22,400 nt of DNA from a virus. The stretch spans positions 1 to 22,400 of IMG/VR virus record IMGVR_UViG_3300030333_002936; one strand, written 5' to 3'. Position 1 is the stretch's first letter; each line of letters starts with the position of its first letter. The notes under the pieces were generated by a model that was given only the letters and a program-made list of their open reading frames with translations, was not told the origin of the DNA and ran no database searches. Position numbers and translations under genes: made by a program. This document shows, in pieces, positions 1 through 5,918 of this stretch.

Positions 1-457
1 TGAAATAATCGCGCAATTCGTCGTCTGTCTGATCGACGTAAACAACGATCATTTCGTTGCCATAACGCTGGGCTAACCGGTCTGCCGCGACTTTTGGCGA
101 CACGGTAATCCAGTCAAATCTAACCTCCCAATTATGGACGCCACTGGTCTGTAGATGACATTTCATCCCCGCGCGTTGTGCGACTTTAATTAACTCACCG
201 ACTTCGTCGGATTGGTCAGCGGGTTCACCGCCTGTAATATGTAGCCAGCCGCTACGCCCGACCGCCGCGATTGCGCGATCTACAATTTCATCGACGGCAC
301 AATCGATGCCATTATGCTTTGACAACGCCTCGCGCTCATCACATTCAGCGCGGATTGGACATGCAACGCTGCACCCCGCAGTGCGGACAAAATATTGCGG
401 CGTACCCAGCAAATGCCCCGTACCCTGAATGCTCGAAAACTCATCATTAACCAGCAT
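1..457 (-). CDS. queE: QueE-like radical SAM enzyme (7-carboxy-7-deazaguanine synthase), 3' end cut by window
   Basis: The visible 152 residues match the N-terminal two thirds of QueE, which converts 6-carboxytetrahydropterin to 7-carboxy-7-deazaguanine in queuosine and 7-deazaguanine DNA pathways. Seen: an opening FSSIQGTG motif (7-14), FVRTAGC (23-29), and a SAM-binding TGGEP (75-79). The cysteines are C29, C33 and C39, giving CX3CX5C where most QueE proteins have CX3CX2C. The residues after the third cysteine (CDE) resemble the CD[ST] of QueE. The ATG at 457 lies inside the end of dpdA (11-bp overlap), so the two are probably translationally coupled. The reading frame is open at base 1, so the C-terminus is missing. 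The family call is strong; activity with the altered cysteine spacing is unproven. Confidence 0.85.
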   Translation of the reverse strand, partial: MLVNDEFSSIQGTGHLLGTPQYFVRTAGCSVACPIRAECDEREALSKHNGIDCAVDEIVDRAIAAVGRSGWLHITGGEPADQSDEVGELIKVAQRAGMKCHLQTSGVHNWEVRFDWITVSPKVAADRLAQRYGNEMIVVYVDQTDDELRDYF

Positions 458-1136
458 TGAGCAACTCCATTTGCGTCGGGCGTGAACTCCAAACAATTGG
501 ATTTTGAATGGCATCGATGCGCCGCGCCATGCGCTCTGGACACACCTTGTCGCGGGCGTGAGATTGCGCGACATTGGTGCTGTCCGCAGACGCAAACGGC
601 CAACGGTCGCCGCACAGCGCGAGGCCGCGTAGCATATGAACCCACGGCAATGCGCCTCGCTTGCTTAAAAAGTTAAACGCTTCGTCGGTTCGACGCTCCC
701 AAGGTTCAGAGCCGACTTGCCAATACGCGCCGCTTGAACCAAAGCAAAGGCGACCAAAGCCAAGATCAAGCAACCGCCCAAGTTGTTCGAGGCTTTCCCC
801 CAAATGCCAAACAACGGCAGCACAATCTCTGCGATGCGGCCATTCTCGCGCTAACGTGAGATTGTCTACCTCTGTGCCGTCAATTTTATCGGGCACAATT
901 GCCCAGTGGGGATGCCCAAGGTAAGGCTCAACAAATTTGTAAAATTTATCCCAATTAGGCACATGCGCTTTCAACGTAAAAAATGTGAAAGCGCCATTGT
1001 CGATGAGAACAGATTGACCGTGCGCGATGCTCCAGTCTAAATCGCGCGGCTCTGCGTAGCTGACGCAAAAATGTTTGCCTGCCATTTTTACCAATTCGCT
1101 GCGCGGCGTTATCGGTGTCCCGTGATAATGGATCAT
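447..1136 (-). CDS. dpdA: DpdA-like DNA 7-deazaguanine transglycosylase (TGT superfamily)
   Basis: A 229-aa protein resembling the phage-type DpdA family, relatives of tRNA-guanine transglycosylase that exchange guanine in DNA for a 7-deazaguanine base. Seen: LIDNGAFTFF (about 44-53), whose Asp46 aligns in style with the first active-site Asp of TGT; HWAIVPDKIDGTEVDN (77-92); AVVWHLGES (107-115); FGSSGAYWQVGS (132-143); and SADSTNVAQSH (183-193) near the end. It is much shorter than bacterial TGT (about 370 aa), as phage DpdA proteins can be, and the usual Zn cysteine cluster is not seen. I chose the ATG at 1136, one base after the upstream stop at 1138; a longer frame to 1292 would overlap a real gene. 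The queE overlap supports a shared pathway. Confidence 0.82.
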   Translation of the reverse strand: MIHYHGTPITPRSELVKMAGKHFCVSYAEPRDLDWSIAHGQSVLIDNGAFTFFTLKAHVPNWDKFYKFVEPYLGHPHWAIVPDKIDGTEVDNLTLAREWPHRRDCAAVVWHLGESLEQLGRLLDLGFGRLCFGSSGAYWQVGSEPWERRTDEAFNFLSKRGALPWVHMLRGLALCGDRWPFASADSTNVAQSHARDKVCPERMARRIDAIQNPIVWSSRPTQMELLNAG

Positions 1137-1137
1137 T

Positions 1138-1923
1138 TTAATAACCGAACACCTCGCGCGCTTTTTCGCGCGTCGATGCCGAAGACCAGTAAAAGGTGTC
1201 GAAGTTGGGGATGACGACCGACGCGACTTCTTCGCGCGTCTCGAACTTGTCCAAGAACCGCAGCAGCCGGTGCGCCGTTTCGCACACCTCAAGCCAGTCT
1301 TGGTCGCTGTTTTCTAGCTGGTAACGCGCGGCCTTCCGAGGCGTTAAGTAGATGAAATCGACGCCACGGTTTCCGCTCGCGCGACTGTAGATCGCGCCTT
1401 GTCTGCGATGGGCTGCGCTTATCGCCGAAGGCAGTCGCGTCGTTGTTTTAAGGTCAACAATGACATCCTCGAAATCAAAGTCCGTATAGCCGATGACTGG
1501 AACAGGGCAGCCTGGAATCTCGACTTCGATGCGCCGTTGAAAGCCTTCCAGCGTTGGGAGGTTGCCGTCAAACAGATCGATATACTGCTGCACCATGAGC
1601 GGAATATTCTCGCGCTCTCGGTCCCGCGCTTCGCCAGCGACCCCGAGCGCGGTTGCCTTGTTGAACTCGCGCACCGCTTCCTCTATCGGGTCATCAAATT
1701 CACTGCCGACATGCGCGACATAACAGCCATGCTCGACCGCCTTTCCGCGTTCCATCGCGGCGTTGCCTGGGTCGTAAACCTTGAACAAATACCGCAGCGC
1801 CCATAGCCCAAGGTCGTTGCGAGCAAGGTCTAGGTTTGAGTGGCTGAAGTGCCGCAGCCCGAAGCGCTTGGCGATATCTTCGATGACGCTGACAGGCAGC
1901 GGCTCGTTTACTTTAGCTGCCAT
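1138..1923 (-). CDS. RecB/Cas4-like PD-(D/E)XK exonuclease
   Basis: A 261-aa protein with the motif order of the PDDEXK_1 (RecB C-terminal/Cas4-like) nuclease family. Seen: GKAVEHG with G60 and H65; GYTDFD with acidic D148; VDLKTTT with D157 and K159; and a QxxxY motif, QGAIY (175-179). Together these form the metal-binding and catalytic set of this fold. Four closely spaced cysteines of a Cas4 Fe-S cluster are not present, so it is a plain RecB-like domain. In phages such proteins act in recombination, replication or host DNA breakdown; which one applies here cannot be read from sequence. Its start overlaps the upstream small gene by 11 bp, and dpdA begins one base after its stop. Confidence 0.85.
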   Translation of the reverse strand: MAAKVNEPLPVSVIEDIAKRFGLRHFSHSNLDLARNDLGLWALRYLFKVYDPGNAAMERGKAVEHGCYVAHVGSEFDDPIEEAVREFNKATALGVAGEARDRERENIPLMVQQYIDLFDGNLPTLEGFQRRIEVEIPGCPVPVIGYTDFDFEDVIVDLKTTTRLPSAISAAHRRQGAIYSRASGNRGVDFIYLTPRKAARYQLENSDQDWLEVCETAHRLLRFLDKFETREEVASVVIPNFDTFYWSSASTREKAREVFGY

Positions 1924-2098: not shown

Positions 2099-2433
2099 TT
2101 GATTAGACCAAGCTGCCGGAAGATTACTTCGACGGTCTTTTCGGGCATGACGTAGAGGCGCTCGACTTTTTCGCCGGGCTGCGCGTCCTCGCGAATGACC
2201 AACATATCGCAGTCGTCTTGGGCGAGTGATTTCCGCAGAAATTTGAAGCCGCTCTTTTTTCTTTTTGCCTCTACGGAAAAACCGGCGAGCATCAAATCGC
2301 CCGCATACTGCTTGCCGTACCTTTTGAATTTTCCGCTGCCGACGACGCGGCTGCACTCAAGCCCAAGCGCTTCCCAATGCTTTACCGTTTCGGCTTCGAG
2401 TTGATAACCGCGCACATAATTTTTATTCGCCAT
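2095..2433 (-). CDS. Hjc-like PD-(D/E)XK protein, possible resolvase or nuclease
   Basis: A 112-aa basic protein with the compact layout of small PD-(D/E)XK enzymes such as archaeal Holliday junction resolvases. Seen: a glycine/glutamate start (RGYQLEAE, E13), a GSGKFKRYG loop, AGDLML with D46, and SVEAKRKKSG with E55 and K57, giving the E...D...ExK pattern. The size (about 110 aa) suits a single nuclease core. Phage relatives are usually annotated only as hypothetical or resolvase-like. It sits directly after the Cro-like gene (11-bp overlap at its start) and before the 61-aa gene (ATGA overlap), in the same early operon as the modification genes. The fold is well supported; the resolvase role is inference. 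Confidence 0.72.
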   Translation of the reverse strand: MANKNYVRGYQLEAETVKHWEALGLECSRVVGSGKFKRYGKQYAGDLMLAGFSVEAKRKKSGFKFLRKSLAQDDCDMLVIREDAQPGEKVERLYVMPEKTVEVIFRQLGLIK

Positions 2434-2614
2434 CGAACCAATCCGTCGCGGTGACTGCGCCGTTCGTTGCTTTAAAGACGGCGCGAATATTATGGGGGCG
2501 CGGGGAGCGGCCTTCGTTGATCCAGTAATAGACAGCCTTTTGCGTCACGCCGATTTCTCTAGCGAGTTCTCCGCTGGTCATGCCGGTATCTTCAAGAAAC
2601 TTTTGGAGCTTCAC
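2423..2614 (-). CDS. Cro-like helix-turn-helix repressor
   Basis: A 63-aa single-domain DNA-binding protein. Residues about 12-35 form the helix-turn-helix: SGELAREIGVTQKAVYYWI, then a short tail. Cro/YdaS-type proteins of lambdoid and related phages have this size and position: first gene of the leftward operon, divergent from the CI-like repressor. The start is a GTG at 2614 with an AAGG Shine-Dalgarno at 2622-2625, seven bases upstream. That ribosome site begins directly after the T-tract of a strong terminator in the leader, so expression probably depends on readthrough. Likely role: repress the CI-like promoter and favour lytic growth. Confidence 0.85.
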   Translation of the reverse strand: MKLQKFLEDTGMTSGELAREIGVTQKAVYYWINEGRSPRPHNIRAVFKATNGAVTATDWFDGE

Positions 2615-2791: not shown

Positions 2792-3400
2792 ATGTCTTCA
2801 AAAAATAATATTAGATCACTGCGTAAAGAACGCGGGATATCAGGGAGTGAACTGGCGCGCCGCATCGGCGTCGAAGCCCATACGTTGCGGCGTTGGGAAA
2901 GGGGCGAGGTGCAGCCGCCGCATGAAACGGCGGGGGCAATCGCTTCATTCTTCAACGTGACGCTCGAAGCTGTGTTAGGCATGGAAGAGCGCACTGAAGG
3001 CATGGGCATCGGTCGAACGACGATACCCGTGTTTGGCCGCGCTGAAGGCGGCAGCGGCATCGTCAACTTCGACCAGCCGCCAATCGATCACATTGAAAAG
3101 CCTGGATATCTTGACGCTGTCGATGACTGTTACGCGCTAATGGTCGTCGGCGATTCTATGGAACCGCGCTTTTTTGCTGGCGAAATTTTAATTGTTAATC
3201 CGTTTCGCGCGCCAAGAGCGGGCGACTTCGTCGTCGTACAGTACCGCCGCAACGGCGATATTATGGCGATTGCAAAGCGCTTTGTGCGGCACACCTCGAA
3301 CGCGCTAACCGTCCATGAACTTAATCCAGACCAAGATATCGAAATCGCCGCAACCGACGTTGTCGCCGTTCATTATGTAGCGAGCGTTCGCGCCGTCTGA
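2792..3400 (+). CDS. CI-like repressor: HTH plus S24 (LexA-type) self-cleaving domain
   Basis: A 202-aa two-domain lysogeny repressor. Residues about 5-60 are an XRE helix-turn-helix (SGSELARRIGVEAHTLRRWE). Residues about 78-200 are an S24 serine/lysine autoprotease: the nucleophile Ser122 sits in VVGDSMEPRF and the general base Lys162 in MAIAKRF. A likely self-cleavage region is the VFGRAEGGSG linker (80-89), though the exact bond is not canonical Ala-Gly. Such repressors are inactivated when host RecA senses DNA damage. The ATG at 2792 has AAAAGG about five bases upstream. It diverges from the Cro-like gene across an operator-like region and ends before a strong terminator. Confidence 0.93.
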   Translation: MSSKNNIRSLRKERGISGSELARRIGVEAHTLRRWERGEVQPPHETAGAIASFFNVTLEAVLGMEERTEGMGIGRTTIPVFGRAEGGSGIVNFDQPPIDHIEKPGYLDAVDDCYALMVVGDSMEPRFFAGEILIVNPFRAPRAGDFVVVQYRRNGDIMAIAKRFVRHTSNALTVHELNPDQDIEIAATDVVAVHYVASVRAV

Positions 3401-3525: not shown

Positions 3526-3738
3526 ATGAGTGACCAAATATTTTTTACGCCACCAGAGGCAGCTAAAGAAATCTGGGGCAAATATGGTCACAGGGAGAGA
3601 CACACAATTTATCGCTATCTTCAACATGAGGTGTTTAAACCAATCGAAGAAAAATCAGGGTATAAGATTTTAAAAGACGGCAATCGCTGGTTGATACCCG
3701 GCGGCTTGGTCAAAGCTATTAAGGAGCAAGCCGGATGA
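3526..3738 (+). CDS. Small HTH/excisionase-like DNA-binding protein
   Basis: A 70-aa basic protein. FTPPEAAKEIWG (7-18) with HTIYRYLQ (26-33) resembles a helix-turn-helix of the AlpA/Xis (MerR-like) kind, and GNRWLIPGG (52-60) looks like the wing that follows it in excisionases. Phage excisionases are this small and often lie close to att and int, as this does. It could equally be a transcription regulator. AAGGA at 3511-3515 is a suitable ribosome site. The stop overlaps the next start (ATGA, 3735-3738). The family call is by motif feel and not a strong signature. Confidence 0.72.
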   Translation: MSDQIFFTPPEAAKEIWGKYGHRERHTIYRYLQHEVFKPIEEKSGYKILKDGNRWLIPGGLVKAIKEQAG

Positions 3739-4103
3739 ATGTTTGCCCGACTTGCCATGGTAATGGCTTTCTCAACTCAGACGATGGGCAAGTTGACTGC
3801 CCTACATGCGGCGGCAGCGGAGAAATCCAAGCCCGCCATTCAATCGCGCTGGAAGCAGCGAGCTTGATCTGCGGCGACCGTAGCGAGACGCATGGTCCTG
3901 TCGATCAAAACTTTCAAAACATCGGAGCGCTTTGGGGTTCGTATCTAGGAAAAGAAATTTCCCTTCTCGATGTCGGCAACATGCTGACGCTTCTCAAAAT
4001 TGCGAGGACTAAAACGAACCCAACGCACCGCGACAACTATGTCGACGGTGCGGGTTATCTGGCGCTGACTGGAGAAGTGAACTTAGTCGGAGAGGAGCAA
4101 TGA
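3735..4103 (+). CDS. DnaJ-type zinc finger fused to a DUF6378 domain
   Basis: A 122-aa protein in two parts. Residues 4-30 carry two CxxCxGxG motifs (C4/C7 and C22/C25), the zinc-binding repeat of DnaJ central domains. Residues about 34-115 match DUF6378, a phage domain of unknown function: R49...HG (53-54), LLKIARTK (86-93) and HRDNYVDGAGYLAL (98-111). The pattern of an HG motif, LKIAR and a DN-D-GY helix resembles MazG-like and nucleotide-modification-associated domains, so a nucleotide-related role is possible but inferred. No catalytic activity can be assigned. The start overlaps the previous stop, so translation is probably coupled. Confidence 0.85.
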   Translation: MNVCPTCHGNGFLNSDDGQVDCPTCGGSGEIQARHSIALEAASLICGDRSETHGPVDQNFQNIGALWGSYLGKEISLLDVGNMLTLLKIARTKTNPTHRDNYVDGAGYLALTGEVNLVGEEQ

Positions 4104-4104
4104 C

Positions 4105-4356
4105 ATGCAGATTGTCACGACGACAACCGACGAACATCGTCAACATAAAGTACGGGTGGACGACTTCCGCGTCATCGCTTACCAGCGGCGACCGGGTTGT
4201 TGGCAGACGACGGACGACTGTCCCTTCGCCGACGCCGACGATCCTCTCGCGATGGTTCGCAAAGCTGTCGAAGCTGGTCATATGATAATGGCACAGCGCC
4301 GCGTCGGTGCCGGTCAGTATGATCTTCTTCTGAAACCAGCGAGGCACCGCCGATGA
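4105..4356 (+). CDS. Hypothetical protein, 83 aa
   Basis: I do not recognise a family. The product is mixed alpha/beta in character and basic at the end (KPARHRR), with two internal Cys/Trp stretches (PGCWQTTDDCPF, 30-41). The ATG at 4105 has GAGGAG (4091-4096) eight bases upstream. A competing frame that starts at 4100 in the previous gene's stop gives only 61 residues of low-complexity sequence, so I prefer 4105. The stop overlaps the start of the zinc-ribbon gene (ATGA, 4353-4356), which supports this frame. Confidence 0.65.
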   Translation: MQIVTTTTDEHRQHKVRVDDFRVIAYQRRPGCWQTTDDCPFADADDPLAMVRKAVEAGHMIMAQRRVGAGQYDLLLKPARHRR

Positions 4357-4529
4357 TTGATTGTGACTTTTGCGGTTCAGCCACCCGCCTGATTGACCAT
4401 TGCTGTACTCAATGCGGAAGGCCACTGTTTGCCGATTGGTACACTGACGAGCAGGGCAATGTGCGCCAAATGTGCGTTACTAGGCGGGATAAGGCTGGAC
4501 AAGACAGGAGACATTCGGTTAATAAGTAA
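4353..4529 (+). CDS. Small zinc-ribbon protein, 58 aa
   Basis: A 58-aa protein with two knuckles: C4-D-F-C7 at the start and C18-T-Q-C21 ten residues later, the CxxC-x10-CxxC spacing of a compact zinc ribbon, followed by a basic tail (TRRDKAGQDRRH). It may bind nucleic acid or a protein partner; its function is unknown. Its ATG overlaps the stop of the upstream gene (4353-4356), so it is the last gene of the small plus-strand operon. It ends 51 bases before the tRNA-derived att core. Confidence 0.6.
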   Translation: MIDCDFCGSATRLIDHCCTQCGRPLFADWYTDEQGNVRQMCVTRRDKAGQDRRHSVNK

Positions 4530-4546
4530 CTGACGGACTTACAAGT

Positions 4547-4652
4547 TATTGATTTCGTTTGATTAAAAAATTTGGCGCAATCAGGCTCATAACCTGAAGG
4601 TCAGAGGTTCAAATCCTCTCCCCGCAACCAAATTCCTCAAATGAAATCAATA
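4547..4652. repeat. 16-bp inverted arms flanking the att core
   Basis: TATTGATTTCGTTTGA (4547-4562) and TCAAATGAAATCAATA (4637-4652) are reverse complements at 15 of 16 positions. They flank the tRNA-derived segment with 74 bases between them. Their placement on both sides of the core suggests integrase arm-type binding sites or boundaries of the attP region. The match is seen directly; the function is inferred. Confidence 0.65.
4581..4630 (+). other. attP core: 3' half of an initiator tRNA-Met gene
   Basis: The segment reads as the anticodon arm (TCAGG-CTCATAA-CCTGA, anticodon CAT, 4581-4597), variable loop, T arm (AGAGG-TTCAAAT-CCTCT, 4603-4619), the 3' acceptor strand CCCCGCA (4620-4626) and ACCA. 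An acceptor 3' strand ending in A opposite the expected C1 is the mark of bacterial initiator tRNA. The 5' half (acceptor 5' strand and D arm) is absent: the bases before 4581 do not fit it. Phages that integrate in tRNA genes carry just such a 3' copy to restore the gene on insertion. The integrase lies 170 bases downstream on the same strand. Confidence 0.88.
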
Positions 4653-4656
4653 TGAT

Positions 4657-4688
4657 AAGGGGGAAGCCGTCAAGGGCTTCCCTTTTTT
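4657..4688 (+). terminator. Intrinsic terminator behind the tRNA-derived att core
   Basis: GGGAAGCC (4661-4668), loop GTCAAG, GGCTTCCC (4675-4682), then six T residues (4683-4688); G-U and A-T pairs extend the stem outward to 4657. It sits 27 bases after the CCA end. It could end the small-gene operon in the free phage and, after integration, the host tRNA-fMet transcript. Confidence 0.85.
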
Positions 4689-4747
4689 CATGTGCGGAAA
4701 TGTGCGTTTTATTTTTCGCGCATCTTGTAATTCCTCGTCAGGTCACT

Positions 4748-4782
4748 GGACAACCATGTCCGGAAGAGTAACATTAAGTTAC
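4748..4782 (+). promoter_or_regulatory. Inverted repeats upstream of the integrase
   Basis: Two short palindromes precede int: GGACA-ACCA-TGTCC (4748-4761) and GTAAC-ATTAA-GTTAC (4768-4782). The second uses the same GTAAC half-site as the operator-like repeat in the repressor control region, so the repressor, Cro-like or Xis-like protein may act here. No convincing -35/-10 pair was found. The integrase ribosome site GAGGA (4790-4794) follows. Confidence 0.35.
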
Positions 4783-4799: not shown

Positions 4800-5918
4800 A
4801 TGCGGAAAAAATCAATCGAAAAGATCAGCGACCAGCGCTACCGGGTGTTTGCGCAAGTCAATGGCAGGCGAAAGTCGCGCATTGTCGAGGGCAGCGAACG
4901 CGCTGCTAGGAAAGAATTAGAACGAATGAGGGTATTGATGAGCGGTGCCGAATATGTTGATCCGGCGACTGCGCCGACTGTGAGAGAGGCGTTCGATGAA
5001 TTTTTGCGAACGCAAGACGAGCGCGTGCAGACTGGCGAAATTGGTCAAGCCGAGTGTGCGAATAAAGAGAGGCACGCGCGGCAGTTCTGCGGCGTGAAGA
5101 TCAACGGCGTCGAAGTTGGGAAAATGAAGACGACTGCAATAAGTTCCGACCTCGTCATTGATGAGATCGTCCCGAAGCTGAAGGCGGGCCGCACAAATCG
5201 CACGGTGCGGAAGCTGGTCGTCAATGTTCAACAGGCGTTTGATTATTTTGCCCGTAAGAAATGGTGCGTCGGCAACGCGGCGTCAGGCGTAAAGATTTCG
5301 ACGGCGGAAGAAGGCAAGCGGCTGCGCCGGATCGCGCCAGCGGAGATGCAGTTCGTTATCAGCCACGCGCCAGATAAATATCGTCTGGCGATTGAGTTTG
5401 CAGCTTACACCGGATTGCGACAGGGGGAGCAGCGCGCCTTGACATGGGACGACATTGATTTTGACGACGGCGTTGTTCATGTGCGCCGCGCTATCAAATC
5501 ACACGCGGGCGTCGGAAAGACAAAAACAGAAGCCGGTGAGCGCTCCATACCTCTAATGGATTTCTTGTTGCAGTCGCTTCGGAAGTGGAAAGTGTCGCAG
5601 CCGCTTGAGCAACGCGCCAACAATCTCGTCTTTCCGAATGAAGTAGGCGAACCAGCAGCCGGTTGGGGCTGGCGCGTGAACGGCATTGGTGCGGCTTGCA
5701 AAGCGGCAGAGGTCGAGCGCATTACTTGGCAAGACCTTCGACATTTCTATGCGTCAGTTCTAATTTTTAATTCAGAGTTTAACGACGCGACAATCACTGA
5801 GTTTCTTGGGCATAGCAGCATCTCATTCAGCAAAAAAGAGTATGCGCGTTGGTTCAAAGATCGGAAGCGTGATGAAAAAATTGCGGCAAAACTTGGCGCT
5901 GCGTTTGGGAGGGGATGA
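4800..5918 (+). CDS. int: Tyrosine recombinase (phage integrase)
   Basis: A 372-aa integrase that should recombine attP with a tRNA-fMet attB. Residues about 1-50 resemble an arm-binding AP2-like N-terminus (DQRYRVFAQVNGRRKS), about 60-160 the SAM-like core-binding domain, and about 178-365 the catalytic domain. Catalytic residues seen: Arg207 (YTGLRQGEQRAL), a probable Lys240 or Lys242 in GKTKTEAGERSIPL, Arg314 in WQDLRHFYAS, His338 in FLGHSS and the nucleophile Tyr348 (KKEYARW). In the HxxR box the usual first His is Gln311 (CAA at 5730-5732). The ATG at 4800 has GAGGA five bases upstream. The last base triplet overlaps the next gene. The family is certain; the effect of Gln311 is unknown. 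Confidence 0.95.
   Translation: MRKKSIEKISDQRYRVFAQVNGRRKSRIVEGSERAARKELERMRVLMSGAEYVDPATAPTVREAFDEFLRTQDERVQTGEIGQAECANKERHARQFCGVKINGVEVGKMKTTAISSDLVIDEIVPKLKAGRTNRTVRKLVVNVQQAFDYFARKKWCVGNAASGVKISTAEEGKRLRRIAPAEMQFVISHAPDKYRLAIEFAAYTGLRQGEQRALTWDDIDFDDGVVHVRRAIKSHAGVGKTKTEAGERSIPLMDFLLQSLRKWKVSQPLEQRANNLVFPNEVGEPAAGWGWRVNGIGAACKAAEVERITWQDLRHFYASVLIFNSEFNDATITEFLGHSSISFSKKEYARWFKDRKRDEKIAAKLGAAFGRG

Follow-up and report, generated by a model that had tools for sequence, protein, structure and literature searches.

We identified the region 4459-4706 of the window (the whole 22,400-nt stretch analysed, i.e. bases 1-22400 of a 23,269-bp record from a viral metagenome) as, with high confidence, the attachment site attP of a temperate tailed phage whose integrase (4800-5918) would target the initiator tRNA-Met gene of the host. 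It combines what is expected of an attP: a core that is the 3' part of a tRNA gene, an adjacent tyrosine integrase with its catalytic residues, and phage genes on both sides. The type of site is ordinary (a tRNA-fMet attP in the uninserted form), but its control elements are unusually legible. The anatomy was derived from the comparison of 12 related viral contigs (Table 1); the alignment of the attP region covered relatives with 47-97% integrase identity, and a further family at 36% (L015, L017) was compared. Core identity, arm repeats, the IHF-like consensus, the terminator, the integrase and conserved synteny are features readable, by our analysis, in the nucleotide sequence itself; protein binding, the crossover in the anticodon arm and the function are what we infer from them. 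A first-pass annotation of the same DNA, made from the letters and their reading frames, had proposed an attP here and predicted an attB in a host tRNA-fMet gene, and this proposal is well supported by the common core, the conserved arm-type and IHF-like sites, the neighbouring integrase and the same layout in 12 contigs. Searches of annotated phage records gave no nucleotide match, and the integrase and capsid matches were all below 60% identity.

Table 1. Features of the attP region and neighbouring genes (window coordinates unless a contig is named)
Feature	Position	Strand	Remarks
Cro-like HTH protein	2423..2614	-	divergent from CI
CI-type repressor	2792..3400	+	HTH_3 + Peptidase_S24; syntenic in relatives
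Genes G, H (DUF6378), I, J	3526..4529	+	ORFs running up to attP
Putative left (P) arm-type pair	4459..4476	+	ATGTGCG-N4-ATGTGCG, inside the end of gene J
IHF-like site, H-type, left arm	4542..4554	-	AATCAATAACTTG, 9/9 of WATCAANNNNTTR
Inverted-repeat arms around the core, long hairpin	4547..4652		arms 4547-4562 / 4637-4652
attP core	4581..4630	+	initiator tRNA-Met(CAT) from the anticodon arm through the 3' CCA
IHF-like site, H'-type, right arm	4645..4657	+	AATCAATATGATA, 8/9 of WATCAANNNNTTR
Intrinsic terminator in the core-int gap	4656..4688	+	GGGAAGCC-GTCAAG-GGCTTCCCTTTTTT
Putative right (P') arm-type pair	4690..4706	+	ATGTGCG-N3-ATGTGCG; single-base variants in L003, L013, L016
Probable int promoter	4747..4781	+	TGGACA-16-TAACAT; two palindromes overlap
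Tyrosine integrase, 372 aa	4800..5918	+	PF00589 E=5.7e-20, phrog_1 E=8e-51
attP region with a different core	L005:1650-2014, L006:28-392, L007:4458-4822		D-armless tRNA-like fold

The core and the initiator tRNA gene

The core 50-mer (TCAGGCTCATAACC...CCCCGCAACCA) lies exactly where the first-pass annotation had placed the 3' half of tRNA-fMet. It matches complete tRNA-Met(CAT) genes over their 3' part at 50 of 50 bp, which is far outside chance, and the identity begins at the first bases of the anticodon arm. ARAGORN detected no complete tRNA gene in the window, and the Rfam search over the core reported only a sub-threshold match to the D-armless tRNA (26 bits versus the gathering threshold of 29). 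The 50-mer is present in 11 viral loci, three of which (L009-L011) contain a complete tRNA-Met(CAT) gene, and was found as the 3' part of a tRNA gene in at least 119 sequenced bacterial contigs. In 116 of the at least 119 bacterial contigs listed the tRNA 5' half is directly beside it, while the other three start at a contig edge inside the tRNA sequence. In the viral relatives L002-L004 and L013-L017, as in the window, the core is letter-perfect.

Arm-type repeats and IHF-like sites

Tandem ATGTGCG pairs occur twice in the window, both times at attP, and none of 100 shuffled sequences contained any. The pairs are conserved in nine contigs (with the left outer copy reading GTGTGCG in L005-L007), and in the L015 family other repeats, rich in CCCCGCA, seem to take their place. 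The left IHF-like site is the sole 9/9 match to the consensus in the window (0.77 expected); its offset from the core start is -39 (-37 in L005-L007), and that of the right site is +64 (+65 in L005-L007 and +54, nearer by one helical turn, in L014/L015/L017). The inverted pair scores 8-9 of 9 in all 12 contigs. Taken singly the IHF-like sites are statistically modest (p from 0.001 to 0.13, and about 0.06 for the right site of the window), and their recurrence at fixed places is a stronger argument than the statistics of any single site.

Terminator, int promoter and integrase

Every related attP has a hairpin followed by a T-run at this position; the stem sequence differs in L013 and in L014/L015/L017. 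The palindromes that overlap the probable int promoter, GGACA-N4-TGTCC and TAAC-N5-GTTA, are each unique in the window and largely kept in the relatives, and are likely to be operators. The catalytic residues R207, R314, H338 and Y348 of the integrase are invariant among the nine aligned sequences. The position of the box II His is occupied by Q in the window and by L, R or K in near relatives. The integrase of L016 (1584-2702) is only 63% identical to that of the window, versus 91-94% for the neighbouring G, H and I; this pattern suggests a mosaic exchange of int with retention of the same attP core. Among the proteins scanned none was named as an excisionase.

On the basis of these elements the following reaction can be proposed. 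The N-terminal domain of the integrase would bind the paired ATGTGCG arm sites, and at the two inverted IHF-like sites the DNA would be bent by IHF. The two-handed integrase would bridge arm and core sites and recombine the anticodon-arm part of the core with its identical counterpart in the host initiator tRNA-Met gene. The crossover is probably located in the anticodon arm, since it is exactly there that the identity with the tRNA starts. The 3' part of the tRNA would be exchanged for the phage copy upon integration; as the copy is identical, the tRNA would be rebuilt, with the phage terminator behind it. Judging from order and orientation, the terminator may shield int from transcription of the tRNA gene, and int would keep its own regulated promoter.

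Genes on both sides of attP

To the left of attP the window encodes a QueE-like radical SAM protein (phrog_2076), a DpdA/TGT-like protein (phrog_887), a nuclease-like protein, the Cro-like protein, the CI/S24 repressor and the products of genes G-J; to the right, the integrase is followed by minus-strand genes for a holin, an endolysin, a tail fibre, internal virion proteins and head proteins as far as the major head protein. The order CI-G-H-I-J-attP-int is kept in L002-L005, L007 and L013, and partly in L016, and therefore the genes left of attP are neither host DNA nor another prophage. The first-pass annotation had named host or other-prophage genes left of position 4530 as an observation that would speak against its reading; the conserved order assigns these genes to the same phage. 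Its statement that phage genes, with the repressor on the left and int and late genes on the right, flank the site on both sides is borne out by annotation and synteny. The QueE-like and DpdA/TGT-like genes are adjacent (window 2-1292, minus strand), which suggests a 7-deazaguanine modification of the phage DNA. The last 869 bases of the record open with a scaffolding gap of 10 N just beyond the end of the window (record position 22401-22410, L008); inspection of the remainder suggests the start of a head-scaffold gene, adjoining the major head protein gene.

State of the sequenced molecule

The sequence had also been regarded as a free phage genome, and of this claim one part stands: the junction is unintegrated, and with P-O-P' intact the record cannot stem from a single ordinary prophage at the site. 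The other part is less certain, as a tandem lysogen or an excised circle looks identical. The suggested check of circularity was carried out, and neither direct nor inverted terminal repeats were detected in the 23,269-bp record, which is thus a linear fragment from which a circular form is not demonstrable. The sequenced molecule therefore had its attP unintegrated, as a free genome or as a replicating or excised circle and, less likely, within a tandem lysogen; a replication concatemer would give the same P-O-P' sequence. A pattern scan with the left half of attP and another with the right half yielded an identical set of four viral contigs; each contig with one half thus has both, and neither attL nor attR was seen among them.

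Two other explanations deserve consideration. The sequenced junction could lie between two tandem prophages (a double lysogen), or in a circle excised inside a lysogen, rather than come from free virions: the middle junction of such an array is exactly P-O-P', tRNA genes are known to hold tandem arrays (Islander lists 125 tandems, PMC4383910), and the record is linear and lacks end repeats. We consider this improbable, since several independent contigs of the family all have P-O-P' and none has attL or attR, a pattern that is possibly biased by the trimming of host flanks in IMG/VR. In T7-like cyanophages the unintegrated form can dominate metagenomes despite real integration (PMC8776855). The 50 bp could also be an inert relic of a tRNA acquired by the phage, with no role in integration, as might be thought from the lack of a complete tRNA in the window and of any integrated relative among the genomes searched. 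It is, however, very hard to reconcile a relic with a core that is unchanged across relatives whose integrases are 36-97% identical (i.e. differ by up to 64%), while its flanks diverge, and that keeps a fixed place between the arm-type and IHF-like sites, beside int. An attP in its unintegrated form is our preferred reading.

Relatives with another core, and the hairpin around the core

In gene order, arm repeats, IHF-like sites and terminator the contigs L005-L007 agree with the window, and their integrases are 79-81% identical to its own, yet their core differs (e.g. CAGGCTCCCAGCCCGAGACCGGATAATTAAAATCCGGAATCGCAACT). This core matched no Rfam family; searches of viral contigs returned only the same three, and no match was found in 289 alphaproteobacterial genomes. 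A different core despite 79-81% integrase identity indicates that core specificity is not tightly tied to the integrase clade. Of the core positions, the first 17 show a higher conservation (65%) than those that follow (48%), which is consistent with contact of the integrase with the anticodon-arm part of the core.

The flanks of the core form inverted repeats that close a long hairpin around it. The predicted RNA fold of the attP region has an energy of -58.9 kcal/mol (z = -7.1), and none of 200 shuffled sequences folded as well. Among nine related sequences, one of which supplied the structure, 88% of the cells are paired and eight pairs are changed on both sides; the covariation score is 0.220, versus 0.135 for shuffled alignments (above 500 of 500 shuffles) and at most 0.076 for slid ones. 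A hairpin around the core is also present in L014/L015/L017. The conserved hairpin exists only in the unintegrated form of attP. It may be asked whether, besides serving as attP, the region acts as a folded nucleic acid: in transcripts that read from genes G-J through attP as far as the terminator, the inverted flanks would enclose the tRNA half in a long hairpin resembling a D-armless tRNA, a structure that would be lost on integration. The stability of the fold, the covariation above its controls and the recurrence of the hairpin in L014/L015/L017 point in this direction; on the other hand, two inverted sites for one protein would evolve as an inverted repeat without any role of RNA or hairpin, the tRNA stems come with the core, and the covariation was measured in only nine related sequences with the structure taken from one. 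We therefore regard such a role as unlikely. The inverted repeats were also considered as a purely RNA structure, and this candidate was given less weight, because the part that varies least is accounted for by the IHF-like sites. These cover the constant part of the outer stem but not the compensatory changes located outside them, which could reflect either additional symmetric sites for proteins or a role in folding. That the flanks are selected for a hairpin found only in the unintegrated form, giving a readout of the integration state at the level of RNA or single-stranded DNA, seems to us rather improbable. Were it true, the free phage, and not the prophage, would make G-J transcripts that finish with a tRNA-like fold and the terminator.

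Integrated elements and the host

The first-pass annotation had recommended searching bacterial genomes for prophages in tRNA-fMet genes with the 50-mer. The search brought up two elements with unrelated integrases, but no prophage of this integrase clade among the genomes sampled. The first element is in L077, an alphaproteobacterial MAG: its complete tRNA-fMet gene contains the 50-mer, and an IHF-like site and a tyrosine integrase frame come within ~40 bases after it. The second, of 2.3 kb, is in a Rhodospirillales MAG (L098:270-2670), where the integrase element is bordered on one side by a complete tRNA-fMet gene and on the other by a direct repeat of ~30 bp, consisting of the tRNA-fMet 3' end plus flank. 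L094 is possibly a third element in a tRNA-fMet gene. L011, whose tRNA has an IHF-like site and a terminator behind it, was considered as an integrated copy of the family and rejected, as its late genes are unrelated and no integrase was recognised in 5.3 kb. No close relatives of the integrase were found in the genome collection, and no integrated copies of the clade were detected in 397 genomes of the Rhodopseudomonas order or, by profile, in 385 alphaproteobacterial genomes (782 sampled Rhizobiales and Alphaproteobacteria genomes in total), samples that had no positive control and thus do not establish the absence of integrated relatives. That attL and attR of this family did not turn up in them speaks against the attP reading, as do the modest statistics of single IHF-like sites and the different core of L005-L007.

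The exact 50-mer matches listed are mostly from Alphaproteobacteria, and also from Verrucomicrobia and Omnitrophota; since among the matches listed the 50-mer spans phyla, the core names neither the host nor even its phylum. The nearest annotated relatives of the capsid include phages of Bradyrhizobium, Rhizobium and Pelagibacter, whose hosts favour Alphaproteobacteria, and the host of the phage is thus probably a member of this group.

Comparison with known systems

As in the lambda attP with Int and IHF (PMC4880445), a tyrosine integrase is associated with putative repeated arm-type sites in both arms and, in 12 contigs, with putative IHF sites between core and arms. Unlike in lambda, the core is the 3' part of a tRNA and a terminator lies between core and int; one arm pair and one IHF-like site were recognised per side, and no Xis or Fis sites are among the elements recognised. 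A-type (anticodon-centred) islands and prophages of Islander (PMC4383910) likewise carry 3' tDNA from the anticodon arm and rebuild the tRNA; in comparison, our phage was seen unintegrated only, and its target is the initiator tRNA-Met. The marine phage contigs of Mizuno et al. 2013 (PMC3861242) are also metagenomic phages with an integrase and an exact fragment of a host tRNA, from which the host was inferred; the tRNA-fMet core is too conserved to name one. The cyanophages P-SSP7 and S-TIP37 (PMC8776855) similarly have an integrase beside an attP that matches a host tRNA, and their unintegrated form dominates metagenomes, but the target is tRNA-Leu and they have no known repressor, whereas the phage in the window encodes one of the CI type. 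Mycobacteriophages with tRNA-dependent lysogeny (PMC10865867) share the tyrosine integrase and an attB in a tRNA gene, but combine a common core of ~10 bp with a phage tRNA that is needed, whereas here 50 bp would rebuild the tRNA; with a 50-bp core and no phage tRNA in the window (part of the genome), our phage does not have the hallmarks of this mode of lysogeny.

Implications

The tRNA-fMet core carries a warning, as it cannot name the host; Mizuno et al. give the same caution on host links based on tRNA (PMC3861242). The swapped core of L005-L007 offers a natural comparison of a change of target among closely related integrases. For a largely uncultured family of temperate phages the attP can now be read with comparative support, from the core through the arm-type and IHF-like sites to the terminator, and the predicted integration reaction, with its attL, attR and attB junctions, thereby becomes directly testable.
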